A stretch of 34,391 bases of DNA, taken from positions 1 to 34,391 of the forward strand of contig NZ_AOIO01000026.1 in the NCBI RefSeq assembly GCF_000337555.1. Reading direction: 5' to 3'. How positions within the stretch are numbered: position 1 is the first letter of the stretch; each line of letters begins with the position of its first letter. Below the pieces are notes generated by a model. The model searched no databases. It was not told where the DNA came from and was given only the letters and a program-made list of their open reading frames with translations. This document shows positions 16,133-29,518 of this stretch, in pieces. Source of the stretch: Natrialba asiatica DSM 12278. Lineage in GTDB: Archaea > Halobacteriota > Halobacteria > Halobacteriales > Natrialbaceae. A program made the position numbers and the translations under genes.

Positions 16133-16531
16133 ATGAGCGATTCGGCTGATACAACTAGAAAATCTGTGAAGACGTACGTCCCAGCATATCAGAAAGACGA
16201 ATGGCAATCTCACGCTAACGAACTCGATATGAGTCAGAGCGAGTTCGTTCGGACGATGGTCCAAGCCGGTCGAAAGGGACTCGAACCCGCAACAGCGGAA
16301 CCCGAATCTACGGGGTCAAACCCCGGGGGTGACGGCCTCGAAACACAGGTCCTCGAATTGTTGTCGGCTGACTCGTATTCGTGGGACGAACTCCTCGAGG
16401 GGGTCAGCGACGACATCGAGTCGCGACTCGACGAGACGCTCGAGCAACTGCAGGCGGACAACCGCATTCGATACAGCGGCCGCCACGGCGGCTACACAAC
16501 GACCGGTGATGGTGATAGTGATGGCAACTGA
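16133..16531 (+). CDS. DUF5805-like DNA-binding protein
   Basis: This 132-residue protein has an N-terminal part (10-50: KSVKTYVPAYQKDEWQSHAN, then SQSEFVRTMVQAG) that looks like a ribbon-helix-helix domain, with a strand followed by two helices. A Gly/Pro/Ser linker (53-68) follows, then a winged-helix-like C-terminal part (70-121: LETQVLELLSADSYSWDELL, then LEQLQADNRIRYSG). It matches, from memory, proteins annotated as DUF5805 that often precede a recombinase gene. Its stop overlaps the recombinase start by 11 nt. The ATG at 16133 is favoured because the earlier in-frame ATG at 16094 adds 13 codons without likeness to the family. It probably regulates or assists the recombinase. Confidence 0.75.
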   Translation: MSDSADTTRKSVKTYVPAYQKDEWQSHANELDMSQSEFVRTMVQAGRKGLEPATAEPESTGSNPGGDGLETQVLELLSADSYSWDELLEGVSDDIESRLDETLEQLQADNRIRYSGRHGGYTTTGDGDSDGN

Positions 16532-17558
16532 GGGGACCCAGGAAGTGGATTCCCCGATCGCGTACTTCCTCGACGATCAGCGCTACCACGGGAAGAGCGA
16601 ACGGACGCTCGAGGCCTACGAGCGCGTCCTTCGGCAATTCGAGTTCTTCGTCGAACGGGAGTTCGAGGCGATCGAGACCGTTGAAGACGCGGATCGGCGA
16701 GCCTGTATGGCCTGGATCCACTCCCTTCGCGGCCAGTTCGAATCGAGTACGATCGCGACGTATGCGTCCTATCTCAACCGCTTTTACGACTATATGACCC
16801 GCATCGGTGCGTTTGACGAGAATCCGATGGCACTCGTCATGGAAGAACTGTCCGAATCTATCGATACGAACCCGACCAGACGGGAACTCTCCATCAGCGA
16901 CATGCAGGCGTTCGTCGCCTCGATCGTCCATCCACTCGAGCGGGCTGTCGTTGTCATGTTACTAAAGACGGGGATGCGCGTCGGCGAACTCTGTAACCTC
17001 GATTTGCGAGATTTACACGATGAGTTCACCTCACTCGAACTCGAGTGGACGCCTCGCGTTGAACTCGATCAACGGCCCTCGTCAGTATATGTGTCTGCAG
17101 AGCCGGCACGCGGGACCGTGGTGAACGGCGAGGAGCGGACGGCCTCGAACAAGCGAAAACGAGAGACCGTTGTTCCAGTCGATACTGAGTTACAGTCGGT
17201 CTTACGCGAGTGGTTGGCTATCCGCCCCGATCCGGTCTCACCGGCGAGGGCGCTGTTTCTCGATACCGGTGAGACGTGGGGCGAGCGCTTGACGCCGTCC
17301 GATGTGCGCTATATCGTCGAGAAACACGCTCGCGAACAGGGGTGGTACCGAACTGGCGGCGGAACAACTGAAAACGTCACGCCGCATTACTTCCGACACT
17401 TCTTCACGACTCACTTACGTGACCGGACGGGGGATCGCGGTATCGTTCAGTATCTCCGCGGTGACGTTGCCGGCGACGTGATCGATACGTACACCCACAA
17501 CTGGGGTAATCGTGTTCGAGAGACCTATCTCGATCATATTTACCGGGTAACAGTCTAG
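16521..17558 (+). CDS. Tyrosine-type site-specific recombinase (XerC/D-like)
   Basis: This 345-residue protein has an N-terminal core-binding SAM-like domain (about 10-110) and a C-terminal catalytic domain. The catalytic residues I can place are Arg153 (GMRVGELCNL), Lys211 or Lys213 (beta-hairpin KRKR), His289 and Arg292 (HYFRHFFTTHL) and the nucleophile Tyr324 (DTYTH). The LGH motif before the tyrosine reads LRGD, so the second histidine is replaced by Asp315. Such proteins resolve dimers or integrate DNA. It is translated with the DUF5805-like gene (11-nt overlap). No phage or plasmid genes are nearby, and I see no flanking att repeats. Confidence 0.88.
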   Translation: MATEGTQEVDSPIAYFLDDQRYHGKSERTLEAYERVLRQFEFFVEREFEAIETVEDADRRACMAWIHSLRGQFESSTIATYASYLNRFYDYMTRIGAFDENPMALVMEELSESIDTNPTRRELSISDMQAFVASIVHPLERAVVVMLLKTGMRVGELCNLDLRDLHDEFTSLELEWTPRVELDQRPSSVYVSAEPARGTVVNGEERTASNKRKRETVVPVDTELQSVLREWLAIRPDPVSPARALFLDTGETWGERLTPSDVRYIVEKHAREQGWYRTGGGTTENVTPHYFRHFFTTHLRDRTGDRGIVQYLRGDVAGDVIDTYTHNWGNRVRETYLDHIYRVTV

Positions 17559-17933: not shown

Positions 17934-19235
17934 TTAGTTGCTGTCGGGGATTTCTACGGTCTTCGTCTGTTTAGGTGGTTGAGAGGTGACGTCGGATGAA
18001 GCTGATTCTTTCGGAGTCTGCTGGGGTTCGTCGCTCCGGTCTGCACTGTGCCACGTCTCGGTGGGGAGTTCACGCTCTTCGATGGCGTTCTCGAGGTCGC
18101 GCATGAACGTCGCGACGGTGTTGCCCATGATATAGACAGGGCGTTCGTTCTCCAACAGCGATTGGAGCACGTCGCCAGCCGGTGTCTCCGTCTCGTGAAC
18201 CGTGACGGGGAACGCCGCCTTCCGAGCGAACGCACTCGTCGTTCCGCCCGCGACGTGGACGCGGTCAAAGACCGGTTCATCCTGGTCGTACAGGTCATTG
18301 AGGTAGTGCAGGAACGAAACTGATCGCCCCCGTCGGTCGCCGCGGAGGTAGAGGAACGGTTCGATACGGTCTATGGCCGGGTCTTTTGCGAAGAGTGCCT
18401 GGCGTATCATCTCCGTGCTCTGGACGTCGTTGACTTCCGCTGCGTTGTAGACGCGTCCGTCGGCGAGCTGTCGCCATTCGACATCCATTCGGTCGCGGTA
18501 CACTGCGAGTTCATCGTCCGTCAGCGGAACCTCGTCGATAGCCCGCAGGATTTCGTTGAGCGCGTAGATCGACTCGATGCCGGGAATGTGTTCGTATTCT
18601 TCGGGGACCGTGACGTGGCTCACGGTTGCGTTTCGGCGGTTGATTTCGGTTTCGAGAAACTCCCGTATGTGTGGATCCTGTTCGGCGTTAATGACGTGGG
18701 TGCCTTCCGGAATCGCTCGAACCAATCCGCGGGCGACCTTGTACCGGTCGCTACCGAGGGTCGACAGGTGGTCCTCGCGAACGTTGCTCAACACGACGAC
18801 GTCCGGATCGACGAACCGAGCGTTTACCATTCGGGTAGTGTACGAGGTAATCGCCTGGTTTTCGACGATTAGGGCATCGTCCGGCGTGTGCGAACGGATC
18901 TCTCGTTCGTTCTCGTAGAGCGTGACCCGGTGTCTGCGAGAAATCGGATGGGTCTCTCCCGAATGGATCGAGACCGGACGGTTGCCGGTTACCTTTGCAA
19001 GCACGTCGTACTCCCTGTCGTAAAGGATGTCGTATACCCATCGGGTGAGACTCGATTTGCCGCGAGTTCCCGAGATCACGATCTGCGTATCGATGTCGTC
19101 GAATCGACGCGTGTGGCGTAGCCCGCGAAGACACGCGTGTTTCACGCCGTTGATGGTTTTTCCGATCGTGCTTACGATGTTCGTTTCGCGAGCCATGTCG
19201 AGGGGAGAGTTTGCGTTTTCCTGTTTGTCGCTCAT
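17934..19235 (-). CDS. pgsB: Poly-gamma-glutamate synthase subunit PgsB/CapB (Mur ligase family)
   Basis: This 433-residue protein is the amide ligase subunit that polymerises glutamate at the cytoplasmic face. It carries the Mur-ligase P-loop as SGTRGKSS (55-62) after QIVI, the VLSNVREDHLSTLG segment (the conserved N-x-x-xDH of Mur ligases) and HVINAEQD. The C-terminal 45 residues are polar and low-complexity (QQTPKESASSDVTSQPPKQTKTVE). PgsB homologues are known from poly-gamma-glutamate-producing haloarchaea such as Natrialba and Natronococcus. It overlaps pgsC by four bases (ATGA). No pgsA/capA or pgsE gene lies next to it in the window. Confidence 0.85.
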   Translation of the reverse strand: MSDKQENANSPLDMARETNIVSTIGKTINGVKHACLRGLRHTRRFDDIDTQIVISGTRGKSSLTRWVYDILYDREYDVLAKVTGNRPVSIHSGETHPISRRHRVTLYENEREIRSHTPDDALIVENQAITSYTTRMVNARFVDPDVVVLSNVREDHLSTLGSDRYKVARGLVRAIPEGTHVINAEQDPHIREFLETEINRRNATVSHVTVPEEYEHIPGIESIYALNEILRAIDEVPLTDDELAVYRDRMDVEWRQLADGRVYNAAEVNDVQSTEMIRQALFAKDPAIDRIEPFLYLRGDRRGRSVSFLHYLNDLYDQDEPVFDRVHVAGGTTSAFARKAAFPVTVHETETPAGDVLQSLLENERPVYIMGNTVATFMRDLENAIEERELPTETWHSADRSDEPQQTPKESASSDVTSQPPKQTKTVEIPDSN

Positions 19236-20392
19236 GCGAGCACCTGCCTGGAGTGGTAGTTGGCAACCGCTTGTCGACGCGTTTCGAGACGGTGCACACA
19301 GTAAATGCCGAACAGAACCGCGCCGAGAAGGACGGCGAATTCGGCGGCGGACACCGTGGTCAGTATGCCGGTCTCCCGCGGTTCAACGAACGTTCTCGTC
19401 CCGGCGAGAAGCAGGGCGTAAAGCGCCGCTGCGAGGGCAACCGATTCGAGGCGTTCGGCGGGCGCGACGCGGTGGTAGTTGTACGCACTGATTCCCGCGA
19501 GCAGGACCGTGAAGTAAAGCGAGAAGCCGACGGTGGCGGGGGCAACGGACGCGACGAGAACGCCGTATCCCATCGCCGTGATGACGCTGAGGCTTAACAA
19601 GACGCGTCCGTAGATCAGGGTGATCGCGTTGATCGCCGTAATGGACGCGTAGACCACGACCACGCCGGCGATGAACACGCCGAGCGTCCACGCGTTCACG
19701 ATCGAAAGGGCGACGAGAAGCGGAATCGCGATCAGCCCGCCCAGTCGGACGCCCCATCGAGCGTGTGCCATCTCGGAGAAGACGAGTCCGACGAGGAACA
19801 GACCGAGCATCCAGATCCGATCTAGAGTCGTCGTCATCGGGACCGAACCGGCGACTGCGTTTCGATACTGAGCGATGTCGGAGGCCGGTGTAAAGAGGAT
19901 TGACGTGAGGCTCGAGCGGAGTTGCGTGGCGAGCGTCGGCGAAACGAGCGCAGCCGCGATAGCCACTAATCCGACGAAAAGTCCGGCGCTCACGAGGAGA
20001 TCGAGACGGCGATCCTCCGGATCGAGTTTGTGATAGTTGTAGGCGGCAATACCGGGTAAGATCGTCCCGGTGAACGCGAGTTCGACCGTGGAGCCGAGGA
20101 TCGCCCACCGATTGAAAACGAGCGCGAGAGTCACCGGACCGAGCGCGCCGGCGGCGAGACTCACGAGCAGTAGTTGGCGGCCGTAAATCAGCGTGTGCCG
20201 TCGAATAAGACCGACCAGGCAGTACGCGAGAGTCGCCGTGACGAGGAAAAGCGGCAGTGCTTCGAACGAATACAGCGTGTACACGGCAAGAAGCGGGACG
20301 ACGATCACACCGCCCATTCGAAGCCCTCGGTACTGTGTGACGCCGATACCGATCGCAATTCCGAGAATTGTAATTGCTGCTGCAACGATCAT
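19232..20392 (-). CDS. pgsC: PgsC/CapC-like membrane protein, internally duplicated
   Basis: This 386-residue polytopic membrane protein is more than twice the length of bacterial PgsC (about 150). It consists of two related halves: residues 1-165 and about 190-370. TLIYGR occurs at 67-72 and again at 258-263, and AYNYH at 117-121 and 303-307 (LPGIAAYNYHKLDPEDR versus LAGISAYNYHRVAPAER). Each half has several transmembrane helices in the PgsC order. PgsC partners PgsB in polymer synthesis and export. The ATG at 20392 gives a start directly at the first helix. The gene is upstream of pgsB and overlaps it by four bases. Confidence 0.82.
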   Translation of the reverse strand: MIVAAAITILGIAIGIGVTQYRGLRMGGVIVVPLLAVYTLYSFEALPLFLVTATLAYCLVGLIRRHTLIYGRQLLLVSLAAGALGPVTLALVFNRWAILGSTVELAFTGTILPGIAAYNYHKLDPEDRRLDLLVSAGLFVGLVAIAAALVSPTLATQLRSSLTSILFTPASDIAQYRNAVAGSVPMTTTLDRIWMLGLFLVGLVFSEMAHARWGVRLGGLIAIPLLVALSIVNAWTLGVFIAGVVVVYASITAINAITLIYGRVLLSLSVITAMGYGVLVASVAPATVGFSLYFTVLLAGISAYNYHRVAPAERLESVALAAALYALLLAGTRTFVEPRETGILTTVSAAEFAVLLGAVLFGIYCVHRLETRRQAVANYHSRQVLA

Positions 20393-20832: not shown

Positions 20833-21765
20833 CTATTCGACGCCGAGTTCCGTGTCGAGATCGCCACCGTTCAATAACGCGCGAACGTCCCGTACTGCGG
20901 TAGTTACTTCGGGAGTGCTCTCTAGCAGGACGGTTTCACTCGGGAACAACTGTTCGCCAAGAAGCAGTCCGTGCTCGCGGGCGGTCGAACCCGTTACCGT
21001 CAGGTAGACGCCGATTCCGGTATCGGCGATCGCCGCCTCCTCTTCGCGACCGTCGGCCGGATACTTGAACTCGATATCTTCGAGCGCGCTCGTCCCAAGG
21101 ACGGCCCGGACGAGTCGTTCGTATCGCGGTTCGATGCAGAGCGGGCCGTCGTACTCGGCGAGAAAGTCCCGGTCGAGCGACGTCGCAGATGGGACCGCCT
21201 CGGGACTGCCCATCAGCGTGTGATAGACGGTATCCCCGAGTCCGGTGACGACCTGCACGTCAGTATCTGCGGGATCGATTCGGGCGTTTACGTCGGCGAT
21301 TCGGTCGAGCGGGTCGGGTCGGAGTTCGACGACTTCCTCCAGCACGAGGTCGGCACTGTCGAACCCGAGTGCGAACTCGTGGGTTCGAAGCGATCGAAAC
21401 GGTTCCTCGCGTCCGACGAGTTGAATTTCGGTATCGTCGGTGGGTACGTCGAGACCGGTGGCGTCGTCGAGCGGGATCGTCACGCTGTCGAAGACGATTC
21501 GACGGGGCTTTCCGGCGCGGGTGTCCCGAACGAGGGTGTATTCGGGTTCGGTCGGGTCGTCGACGGCGCTGTAGTCGGCGAGACGATGGTAGACGTTTTC
21601 CTCCGAAGCATCGAGCGTTCCCTTGGTCAGGGCCTTTTCGTGGCGAAGCGTCGACGAAATCTCGTCTGCGAGGTCGGCGATATCGAGTCGACTTGCCAGG
21701 CGGTCGAGGACCGACTCGAGCGGTCGTCCTTTTCGAGGAACAGCGATCGGGATCGTCTCGCCCAT
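20833..21765 (-). CDS. HisG-like protein (divergent ATP phosphoribosyltransferase fold)
   Basis: This 310-residue protein begins MGETIPIAVPRKGRPLESVL, which resembles the IAVPNKGRL start of HisG. Later text, IEPRYERLVRAVLG then EEEAAIADTGIGVYLTVTGSTAREHGL, resembles HisG's IATxYPxLxxxYL and EVAPxxGLADAIxDLVxTGxTLxxNGL, including the phosphate-loop-like TGST. The middle differs and is longer (about 90-200). It may be a paralogue with a different substrate or a binding protein. No histidine genes are nearby. A TATA-like element (21788-21796) is about 27 nt before the ATG. The similarity is by eye; a related but inactive enzyme is possible. Confidence 0.6.
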   Translation of the reverse strand: MGETIPIAVPRKGRPLESVLDRLASRLDIADLADEISSTLRHEKALTKGTLDASEENVYHRLADYSAVDDPTEPEYTLVRDTRAGKPRRIVFDSVTIPLDDATGLDVPTDDTEIQLVGREEPFRSLRTHEFALGFDSADLVLEEVVELRPDPLDRIADVNARIDPADTDVQVVTGLGDTVYHTLMGSPEAVPSATSLDRDFLAEYDGPLCIEPRYERLVRAVLGTSALEDIEFKYPADGREEEAAIADTGIGVYLTVTGSTAREHGLLLGEQLFPSETVLLESTPEVTTAVRDVRALLNGGDLDTELGVE

Positions 21766-21897: not shown

Positions 21898-23997
21898 TTA
21901 CGAATCCGAGAACATCGACCCCAGCTGGTCGCGCCACTCCTGAATGTCGGTGACCTCCGAACGAACGTCGTCGAGTTCGTCTTCGACGGTTTCGAGGTCA
22001 TCTTCTACCGTTTCGACGTCTGATTCGACGGTCGACACGTCGGATTTGACGGCGTCGATCTCCGTCGAGAGATCGTCGATGGACGCGGACAGGTCGCTCT
22101 CGAGGCTGTCGACAGTTTCGGCGAGATCGTCGACGCGCGAATCGACGCTGGAAACGTCGTCGTCGACGCCGTCGAGGTCGGCTTCCAGTTGCTCGACATC
22201 GGAATCGACAGTATCGAGATCGGTCGCGACATCGTCCACGTCGGTTTCGATGCGATCAGTCCGAGAGTCGAGTTCGTCGACGGTGTCCGCGGTAGTCGCG
22301 AGGTCGTCCTCGATGTCGGTGGTCCACTCGGTCAGCGTTTCGACTTCGGTTTCGAGGGTCGTGACCTGCGAGTGGGTTCCCGAGAGGCGGTCATCCATCG
22401 ATGCAAGATCGTCCTCGAAGGCGGCGAGTTCACTTCTGAACTCGTCGATGATCTGCTCGTCGGTGCCGTTCTCGCCGAGGAACGTTTCGAGGGCGTCCGT
22501 GTAGGCGGCGACCTCCTCGACTCGGGACTGGAGGTGGTCGATTCTGGCGAGATCGGCGCTCGTCGGCGTGGTCGTGTCGGGTTCGGTGGCTTCGTCGTCC
22601 GCGTCCGCGCTGTCGAGTTCGGTTCGGAGGACCGCGAGGTCGTCCTCGTCGAGATCGTCGTTGCGGATCTCGGCTGCGAGTTGCGCGCCGAGCGGGCGGG
22701 CGGTGTCTGCGTCTGTCTCTGCTCCCGCGTCCGGGGCCGCGTCAGATTCAGGCACTGCGTCGGTATCGGACGAATCGGTTGCAGCGCCAGCAGCGTCCGT
22801 CTCCGTTTCCATCCCCGTCGGTGGGGCGTCAGTGTCGTCGGTGTCAGCCGGGGCGGTCTCGGGCTCGGGTTCCGCTTTCTCGGCCGACTCACCTGTCACC
22901 GGCGTCTCGTCGTCTTCGTCCGCGTCGGTCGACGCAGCCGCGTCGTCCGCGCCCTCGAGTTCGTCGGCGGTGTCGGTCTCGTCTTCCTCGGGTGCGGTGT
23001 CAGCCGGGTCGCCGCCGTCGTCCGTCTCGTCATCCAGATCGAGTTCGAGTTCCGGGCCGTCATCGTCCGGTTCGAGTTCGAGCGCTTCGGCGTCGGATTC
23101 GTCCGCGTCCGCGTCCGTGTCGGCTGTCGACTCGTCGCTGAGTGCACTCGAGATCGTTTCGTCCTCGTCGAGATCGGTGAGGTCGTCGTCCTCGAACCCG
23201 AGGTCGATGTCCGGCGTCTCGTCGGATCCGTCATCGGACGGTTCCGAGTCGGGTTCCGTGTCGATACTGCCGAGGTCCAGGTCCAGATCGCCGGACTCTT
23301 CGAGCGCGTCGGCCTCGTCGTCGGGCGTCAGATCGAGCGATTCGGTCTCGTCTTCGAGTTCAAGATCGAGGTCGCCATCGGAAGGCGTCTCGGCTGCGTC
23401 GTCGTCCATTTCGGTAGCTGTCGTGTCTGCAGTCGGCTCGTCGGTCGCTTCGTCGTGATCGGGATTGGGGTCAGGATTAGGATCGGCGTCCGTCGACTCT
23501 TCGTCGAGCCCCGGCACGGAGCCGGACTCACCGGCGATCATATCTTTGACTGCCTGCGTGCGTTCGTCGGAGACGATGCTGTCGATGATGGCGTCGTCGA
23601 CCTCGTCACCACCGGTGCTGGCGTCGGCCTCGGAACTGACCTCGACGATTTCCGGTTCGGTGAGGAATTCGGGGACCGTCTCCTCGTCGTCGATTCGAAT
23701 GCCGTACACCGTCACGAGTTCGTCGCCCGGGTCGAGCGTGTGGGTGAACTCGACGCGGTTGTCCTGGAAGGCGGTCCAGTCCTCGCTGTAGTGGTCGGGG
23801 TGGAACCCGACCTTGTCCATCGGGAACGATTCGGGGATGTCTTCGGAGAGTCGGAATGCGACCTGCTCGTCGTGCTCCGATTCGATCTCGAACCGGAGGG
23901 CAGGTACGGGAAACTCGTCCGCCGCGAACGTCTTTTGGACGGTCAACCCGTCGGCACTGACCTCGATCACGTCGTCCGTGTCGGCGGTGCTACTCAT
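21898..23997 (-). CDS. Acidic coiled-coil protein with N-terminal beta domain, function unknown
   Basis: This 699-residue protein has three parts. Residues 1-115 look like a compact beta-sandwich domain (VQKTFAADEFPVPALRFEIE, FPMDKVGFHPDHYSEDW, ELVTVYGIRIDDEE). Residues 120-460 are low-complexity Asp/Glu/Ser/Thr/Ala. Residues 470-690 are a long coiled coil with regular heptads (DDDVSSVDSRVDDLAETVDS, then DAVKSDVSTVESDVETVEDD), with no predicted membrane segment or signal peptide. The ending EWRDQLGSMFSDS closes the helix. A TATA box (24023-24029) is 29 nt before the ATG. I do not recognise the family; a cytoskeletal, chromosome-organising or scaffolding role is inferred only from shape. Confidence 0.8.
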   Translation of the reverse strand: MSSTADTDDVIEVSADGLTVQKTFAADEFPVPALRFEIESEHDEQVAFRLSEDIPESFPMDKVGFHPDHYSEDWTAFQDNRVEFTHTLDPGDELVTVYGIRIDDEETVPEFLTEPEIVEVSSEADASTGGDEVDDAIIDSIVSDERTQAVKDMIAGESGSVPGLDEESTDADPNPDPNPDHDEATDEPTADTTATEMDDDAAETPSDGDLDLELEDETESLDLTPDDEADALEESGDLDLDLGSIDTEPDSEPSDDGSDETPDIDLGFEDDDLTDLDEDETISSALSDESTADTDADADESDAEALELEPDDDGPELELDLDDETDDGGDPADTAPEEDETDTADELEGADDAAASTDADEDDETPVTGESAEKAEPEPETAPADTDDTDAPPTGMETETDAAGAATDSSDTDAVPESDAAPDAGAETDADTARPLGAQLAAEIRNDDLDEDDLAVLRTELDSADADDEATEPDTTTPTSADLARIDHLQSRVEEVAAYTDALETFLGENGTDEQIIDEFRSELAAFEDDLASMDDRLSGTHSQVTTLETEVETLTEWTTDIEDDLATTADTVDELDSRTDRIETDVDDVATDLDTVDSDVEQLEADLDGVDDDVSSVDSRVDDLAETVDSLESDLSASIDDLSTEIDAVKSDVSTVESDVETVEDDLETVEDELDDVRSEVTDIQEWRDQLGSMFSDS

Positions 23998-28495: not shown

Positions 28496-29518
28496 ATGGC
28501 GAAAGGCCTAGACGTCGGAACCATGAACATCCTGTCTGCACAACAGGATGGGAACGACACGGTGTTCGTGCAACAGCGCAACTCCTTCGTAGAGATCGAG
28601 TACTCGGATATGGCCGAGCAGATGCTCTCGCGAAGCGAAGTACTCCACATTCGCAAGGATGACAAGGTGTACGTCGTCGGCGACGACGCCCTGAACTTTG
28701 CGAATATTTTCAACAAGGAGACGCGGCGGCCGATGAAACACGGGATCCTCTCGAACGACGAGCAGAGCGCGATCCCGATGATGAAGCTCATCATCGAGCA
28801 GGTCGTCGGCGAACCCGCCTATCCGGACGAGAAACTGTACTTCTCGTCCCCCGCGGATCCGATCGACTCGGATCTGTCGACGCTGTACCACCAGAAGACG
28901 ATCGAGTCGTTCCTCGACGACATGGGGTACGACTCCGAACCGATCAACGAGGGCATGTCCGTCATCTACAGCGAACTCGCGGATAACAACTTCACCGGCC
29001 TCGGCATCAGCTTCGGTGCCGGGATGACGAACGTCTGTCTCTCCTACTACGCGGTGCCCGTCATGAAGTTCTCCGTCGCCCGCGGTGGCGACTGGGTCGA
29101 CGAGCAGGCCGCCCGCGCGACGGGTACCCCTGTCGACAAGGTCACCTCCATCAAGGAGGACGACTTCGAACTCGACTTCACGACGGATGTCGGCGGCGTC
29201 GAGGGTGCACTCTCGATTTACTACGAGAACCTGCTCGACTACGTTATCGACAACATCGTCTCGGAAGTCGACGAGGAAGACGTCGAGGAAGGCCTCGACG
29301 TGCCGGTCGTCGTCACCGGCGGGACCTCGAGCCCCAGCGGCTTCGAGGCCCTGTTCCGCGACCACCTAGAGGACGCGAGCATTCCGTTCTCGATTAGCGG
29401 CGTCACGCACGCGAACGAACCGCTTTACAGTGTGGCTCGCGGCGGTCTCGTTGCCGCACGCTCGGACGAGGACGTCGACCACGACGAGGAAGAGGCAGAA
29501 GCAGCTGCGAGCGAGTAA
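28496..29518 (+). CDS. Salactin, haloarchaeal actin homologue
   Basis: This 340-residue protein is an actin/ParM-fold ATPase. The phosphate-1 loop is GLDVGTMN (4-11), the phosphate-2 region [13 protein letters not shown] and the adenosine motif [13 protein letters not shown]. The N-terminal [20 protein letters not shown] and overall length match salactin of Halobacterium salinarum, known to form dynamically unstable filaments that grow from the cell poles. The C-terminus is an acidic tail ([17 protein letters not shown]). No MreB or crenactin genes are near. A four-helix membrane protein precedes it. Confidence 0.85.

Follow-up and report, generated by a model that had tools for sequence, protein, structure and literature searches.

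PgsC is described by the TIGR04011 model as a single domain of about 130–160 residues; the PgsC encoded at this locus of Natrialba asiatica DSM 12278 departs from that size, with 386 residues and two domains. The gene lies in a 34,391-nt stretch of DNA (the window; Table 1). A sequence-only reading had taken the protein for a tandem duplication, based on two motifs recurring in the same order within halves the size of bacterial PgsC, and had suggested that, if PgsC works as a dimer, the fusion would fix that dimer and allow the halves to specialise. The repeat spacings were borne out (TLIYGR at residues 67–72 and 258–263, 191 apart; AYNYH at residues 117–121 and 303–307, 186 apart), as was the size of the halves, at about 152 and 156 residues compared with mostly 142–160 for single-domain bacterial proteins.

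Table 1. Positions of pgsC, its parts, and pgsB in the window.
Feature	Coordinates	Strand	Description
pgsC, tandem two-domain PgsC/CapC	19232..20392	-	386 aa, ATG start, 13 membrane helices predicted
PgsC N half	19937..20392	-	residues 1-152, PF14102 at residues 10-127
PgsC linker	19838..19936	-	residues 153-185, predicted outside
PgsC C half	19370..19837	-	residues 186-341, PF14102
PgsC C-terminal tail	19235..19369	-	residues 342-386, extra hydrophobic helix TM7', basic end
pgsB/capB, Mur-ligase-type amide ligase	17934..19235	-	433 aa, PF08245 2.8e-7, above cut-off

Profile searches recognized each half separately. The full-length protein contained two PF14102 stretches (109 bits; cut-off 27). 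Scanned alone, the N half scored 85.4 bits (5e-24) and the C half 41.9 bits (1.6e-10), both above the Pfam cut-off of 27. TIGR04011 also found both halves (8.8e-7 for N, 4.5e-4 for C), each under the NCBI equivalog cut-off of 96.45, as was the whole protein at 37.1 bits. Both YGR and PG..A were present in the N half, where the latter reads LPGIAAYNYH (residues 112–121); the C half shares YGR, with AG in place of PG (LAGISAYNYH, residues 298–307). Across the whole N. asiatica genome, PF14102 matched the two halves of pgsC and nothing else.

The similarity of the halves did not vanish when they were aligned with each other. Their local score (BLOSUM62) was 166, which is 14–17 SD above those of shuffled sequences, whether plain (n = 1000; mean 42, SD 7.3, maximum 78) or keeping the hydrophobic/polar pattern (n = 1000; mean 46, SD 8.4, maximum 89). 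Half-profiles built from 77 haloarchaeal sequences aligned over 143 columns with 99.7% probability (E = 4e-26), the two N. asiatica halves being 28% identical in this alignment. Chance or mere hydrophobic likeness is ruled out by the shuffles and the profile-profile E value. A MAFFT alignment of the tandem protein (P0001) with Bacillus PgsC was uninformative, with single-domain sequences smeared across both halves. PF14102 matches, profile comparison, shuffle scores, and the trees described below all agree: the 386-residue ORF is two PgsC/CapC domains fused head to tail.

The fusion is ancient and common to haloarchaea, not private to N. asiatica. Members of the PgsC family were found in 79 of 391 genomes of the class Halobacteria, nearly always as one frame of about 390 codons. 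With half-specific profiles, 88 of the 96 haloarchaeal ORF entries that matched were seen to contain both domains (a count that includes repeat loci), and the remaining 8 look cut, frameshifted, or decayed; the haloarchaeal set comprised 77 distinct ORFs of at least 350 aa. Candidate unfused pairs were considered and rejected. In L012 and L083 the frame changes at a point inside the C half and distant from the boundary between the domains, and in the related genomes of L080 (4612–5621) and L081 (4549–5558) a shortened N-half ORF lacks YGR and the C half looks intact, with no PgsB found nearby. The position of the break in the former pair, and the damage and missing PgsB in the latter, make these loci look like decay and not like an unfused state. 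Separately, two genomes of family f10 carry very divergent tandem PgsC (L078, 4353–5495; L079, 4920–6035 and 6153–7247). The PgsB-like neighbor in L079 has GTVGTAA in place of the P-loop GTRGKS, so the divergent copy there may be a non-catalytic paralogue.

Single-domain PgsC was found in seven archaea outside the haloarchaea. Within the same phylum, PgsC of families f30 and f38 is single-domain, and family f13 (presumably methanogens) has the tandem form too. Among Bacillota, the family occurred in 28 of 299 genomes (27 over the cut-off) with one copy each, and all 26 ORFs recovered were single-domain. Bacterial phyla beyond Bacillota were sampled through plasmids only, and the copies from Streptomyces and Cetobacterium were likewise single-domain. 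No relatives were found in the viral contigs searched. The B. subtilis PgsC sequence that served as a query and in alignments A1 and A2 was confirmed as PgsC by the PgsC loci that it retrieved from Bacillus genomes, and our conclusions rest on those loci.

A phylogeny of the N and C halves points to one old duplication, after which both halves descended jointly. All C halves formed one clade (100/99), and the tandem halves together split off from all single-domain sequences (99/97); the N halves lay on one side with weak support (68/32). Recent or repeated lineage-specific duplication was rejected for the clade of N. asiatica by an AU test (p = 3.4e-5), in which a tree constrained to group its own two halves with the N and C halves of its three nearest relatives was worse by 73 log units. 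Monophyly of the N halves was not recovered in the AU-test tree, yet was not rejected, with the constraint costing 0.5 log units (p = 0.47). Distances between N halves and between C halves were correlated (Mantel r = 0.78, a value reached in none of 2000 permutations). As the N half was hardly nearer to its own C half (26% identity) than to other C halves (25%), there was no sign of exchange between halves. The representative of the f13 loci (L099–L105, L250) nested among the haloarchaeal sequences in the N part of the tree and again in the C part, and its PgsB was nested in haloarchaeal clades too. Together, these placements suggest transfer, and the tandem PgsC of f13 was likely acquired from haloarchaea.

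The partner gene pgsB lies directly downstream and shares 4 bases (ATGA) at its start with the end of pgsC. Its product has the P-loop GTRGKS at residue 56 and matched TIGR04012 at 4.1e-30 (105 bits, under the equivalog cut-off of 223). Of 96 haloarchaeal tandem loci, 95 had the order C-then-B, with a median overlap of 4 bases; C-B order was also found in 16 of 16 f13 tandem loci, in the f30 singles, and in L246. The order was B-then-C in every one of the 108 bacterial loci and in two f38 singles (these counts include repeat loci). PgsB of N. asiatica has no N-terminal membrane helix (peak hydropathy 0.44), and the N-termini of archaeal C-B-type PgsB are not hydrophobic (peak about −0.7 to 1.25), unlike those of nearly all bacterial PgsB (about 1.5–3.3). 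C-B order and an anchorless PgsB mark an archaeal type of synthase.

Bacterial PgsC/CapC (PF14102, TIGR04011; e.g. Bacillus subtilis) shares with it the domain, YGR and PG..A, the helix pattern, and a PgsB partner, but differs in having one domain, B-C order, and a PgsB with an N-terminal membrane helix. Single-domain archaeal PgsC from the same phylum (L106, L242, L243, and L244; also L246) shares the C-B order, and in the first four loci PgsB lacks a membrane anchor as in N. asiatica. In the PgsB tree, tandem-linked PgsB grouped together (SH-aLRT 99) beside PgsB of the archaeal C-B singles, making the latter the closest unfused relatives. They differ in having one domain of 152–160 aa, and their genomes yielded no second copy. 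CapC/CapB of Haloquadratum walsbyi and Haloarcula hispanica are the same genes as those of N. asiatica. Several haloarchaeal tandem loci adjoin CapA, including one of Haloarcula (L110) with the same tandem and order followed by CapA. CapA/PgsA was absent from the N. asiatica pgsC-pgsB operon, and the sole match in the genome was on another contig (C3).

Other genes in the window were also noted. Downstream of pgsB is a convergent recombinase-like gene (16329–17558, + strand). Upstream of pgsC, a 310-aa ORF (20833–21765, − strand), whose start (MGETIPIAVPRKGR) resembles ATP phosphoribosyltransferase, had no match in Pfam or NCBIfam; elsewhere it was seen adjoining pgsC in just the two nearest loci (L032, L033). 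A 699-aa acidic protein (21898–23997, − strand) has low-complexity D/E/T stretches and a long coiled-coil C-terminus with a FlaC_arch match. An actin-like protein (28496–29518, + strand) with weak similarity to MamK/FtsA is possibly a haloarchaeal shape-determining actin homologue.

Loop charges show that both halves have the same membrane orientation. Basic residues in loops 1, 3, and 5 came to 1.3, 3.2, and 2.8 in the N half and 2.9, 1.9, and 2.2 in the C half, compared with 0.6 and 0.4 (N) and 0.5 and 0.5 (C) in loops 2 and 4. This identical alternation excludes an antiparallel (inverted) repeat. The C-terminus is basic and the linker is poor in basic residues for its length. The simplest reading of these features is a predicted topology in which the N-terminus and the linker are outside, each half crosses the membrane six times, and a 13th helix leaves the C-terminus inside. 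In all but one of the 76 tandem sequences, the hydropathy of that helix, TM7', peaked at 1.2 or more. The linker is 33 residues long in 66 of 76 sequences and contains a conserved motif, LF.P.SD.A (L166, D172, A174); length and motif indicate that it is more than a tether.

A full-length AF2 model, produced from no alignment, was of low confidence (pLDDT 43) and was used for helix positions only; its helices lay at matching places, and TM7' was among them. A model of Bacillus PgsC (pLDDT 83.5) had six helices, the second of them short (residues 33–39), such that this helix may be re-entrant instead of a full crossing. Searching this model by fold against the PDB gave nothing below E = 4.9, and no PgsC relative was found among solved structures. 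A fixed parallel dimer would require its halves to be oriented alike, as they are here, but this is no proof of one.

The two halves have retained different residues. YGR is kept in both, at 100% in the C half and at 97–100% in the N half apart from its Y (67%), and (A)YN too is kept in both, with AYN at 83–100% in the C half. The G of PG is likewise retained in both halves. Its P (P113) is invariant in the N half, and every archaeal single has it, as do 97% of bacteria; at the equivalent site of the C half, half of the sequences have A and the rest have other residues. Within the conservation set (haloarchaea and one presumed methanogen sequence), Y38, D131, and L142 are invariant in the N half and not in the C half, Y38 also being found in archaeal singles. 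In turn, E207, G289, F294, H307, and R314 are present at 93% or more in the C half, and E207, G289, H307, and R314 are conserved mainly there. The C half evolves faster, with a lower mean identity among C halves than among N halves (35% vs 42%), yet is under clear selection; its stem branch is long (1.3 changes per column). At the sequence level, the consistent divergence supports a fused pair with specialised halves. The specialisation proposed by the sequence-only reading thus gained support from the distinct invariant residues and the parallel descent; the fixed dimer is its interpretive part.

We consider it probable, at roughly 0.6, that the fused double PgsC and the soluble PgsB form the core of an archaeal synthase of the capsule polymer poly-γ-glutamate (PGA), with the fusion fixing a homodimer whose halves have since diverged. 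The pair fits a two-component synthase as in Bacillus, where PgsB and PgsC are both needed and, when overexpressed, are sufficient for PGA, which is L-rich without PgsA (PMC6029982). A haloarchaeon, Natrialba aegyptiaca, produces all-L PGA (PMC5751247). In the proposed mechanism, two PgsC domains derived from one old duplication would lie in the same orientation with an extracellular linker between them, and TM7' would return the C-terminus to the cytoplasm. Soluble PgsB would dock on the basic cytoplasmic loops of PgsC, including YGR of both halves, and use ATP to add glutamates on the cytoplasmic side. The PgsC pair would hold PgsB to the membrane and export the polyanion as it grows. The N half retains the ancestral PG turn near the domain end, and the C half the fold and YGR with an altered PG site. 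Most likely, the fusion fixes in a single chain the homodimer that single-domain organisms assemble.

A parallel tandem is most simply read as the counterpart of a single-domain PgsC homodimer, and on balance we favor this reading; no PgsC stoichiometry turned up in the literature searched. More tentatively, at somewhat under even odds, PgsC would be dimeric and haloarchaea would have frozen an asymmetric pseudo-heterodimer, in which one half serves transport or priming, the other positions the anchorless PgsB, and PG is kept in one half. Both PGA synthesis in N. asiatica and the assignment of tasks to each half are what we infer.

These readings compete with one in which the N half alone does the work of PgsC, the C half has diverged into a scaffold or a regulatory domain in the membrane, no functional pair exists, and single-domain PgsC is monomeric. 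The P of PG, invariant in N halves and mostly lost in C halves, would agree with this, as would the long stem branch and lower identity of the latter. We nevertheless judge it unlikely, since the C half keeps YGR and AYN and was never lost alone among the intact loci seen. Its own nearly invariant residues indicate that it is not simply drifting, and in the two decayed loci it is the N half that is damaged, with no PgsB found nearby. A compensatory role, with the extra copy and TM7' replacing the missing membrane anchor of PgsB or the missing PgsA, appears improbable. It would suit the non-hydrophobic N-terminus of archaeal C-B-type PgsB and the lack of CapA in the N. asiatica operon, but single-domain archaeal PgsC (L106, L242–L244) also adjoins such a PgsB, so that anchor loss came without fusion, and several tandem loci do have CapA adjoining.

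The product itself must also be considered. PgsC and PgsB both fall under their NCBI equivalog cut-offs (37 vs 96 and 105 vs 223 bits), leaving the exact polymer uncertain, and identity to bacterial PgsC is just 16–19%. A related amide polymer or a short γ-glutamyl chain in place of classical PGA would be in keeping with these values. We give this the least credence, as C and B are conserved together as a pair, a haloarchaeon makes γ-L-PGA (PMC5751247), and an earlier report assigned capB/capC of Haloquadratum to PGA (PMC1544339).

Haloarchaeal capB/capC were noted in 2006 as bacterial-type CapBCA, with the duplication unmentioned in the passages found (PMC1544339). Domain databases would display two PF14102 matches, so anyone looking there would see the bare fact; none of the papers and passages searched mentions the fused architecture. 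A 2015 survey by BLAST reported PgsC to be absent from archaea (PMC4497714), and the fused, diverged form of the protein may help explain why it was missed. For the family as a whole, a covalent double PgsC with consistently diverged halves points to a working unit of two. The double copy also shows which residues each PgsC copy needs and, being a natural pair with diverged halves, makes PgsC pairing testable by mutating one half at a time.
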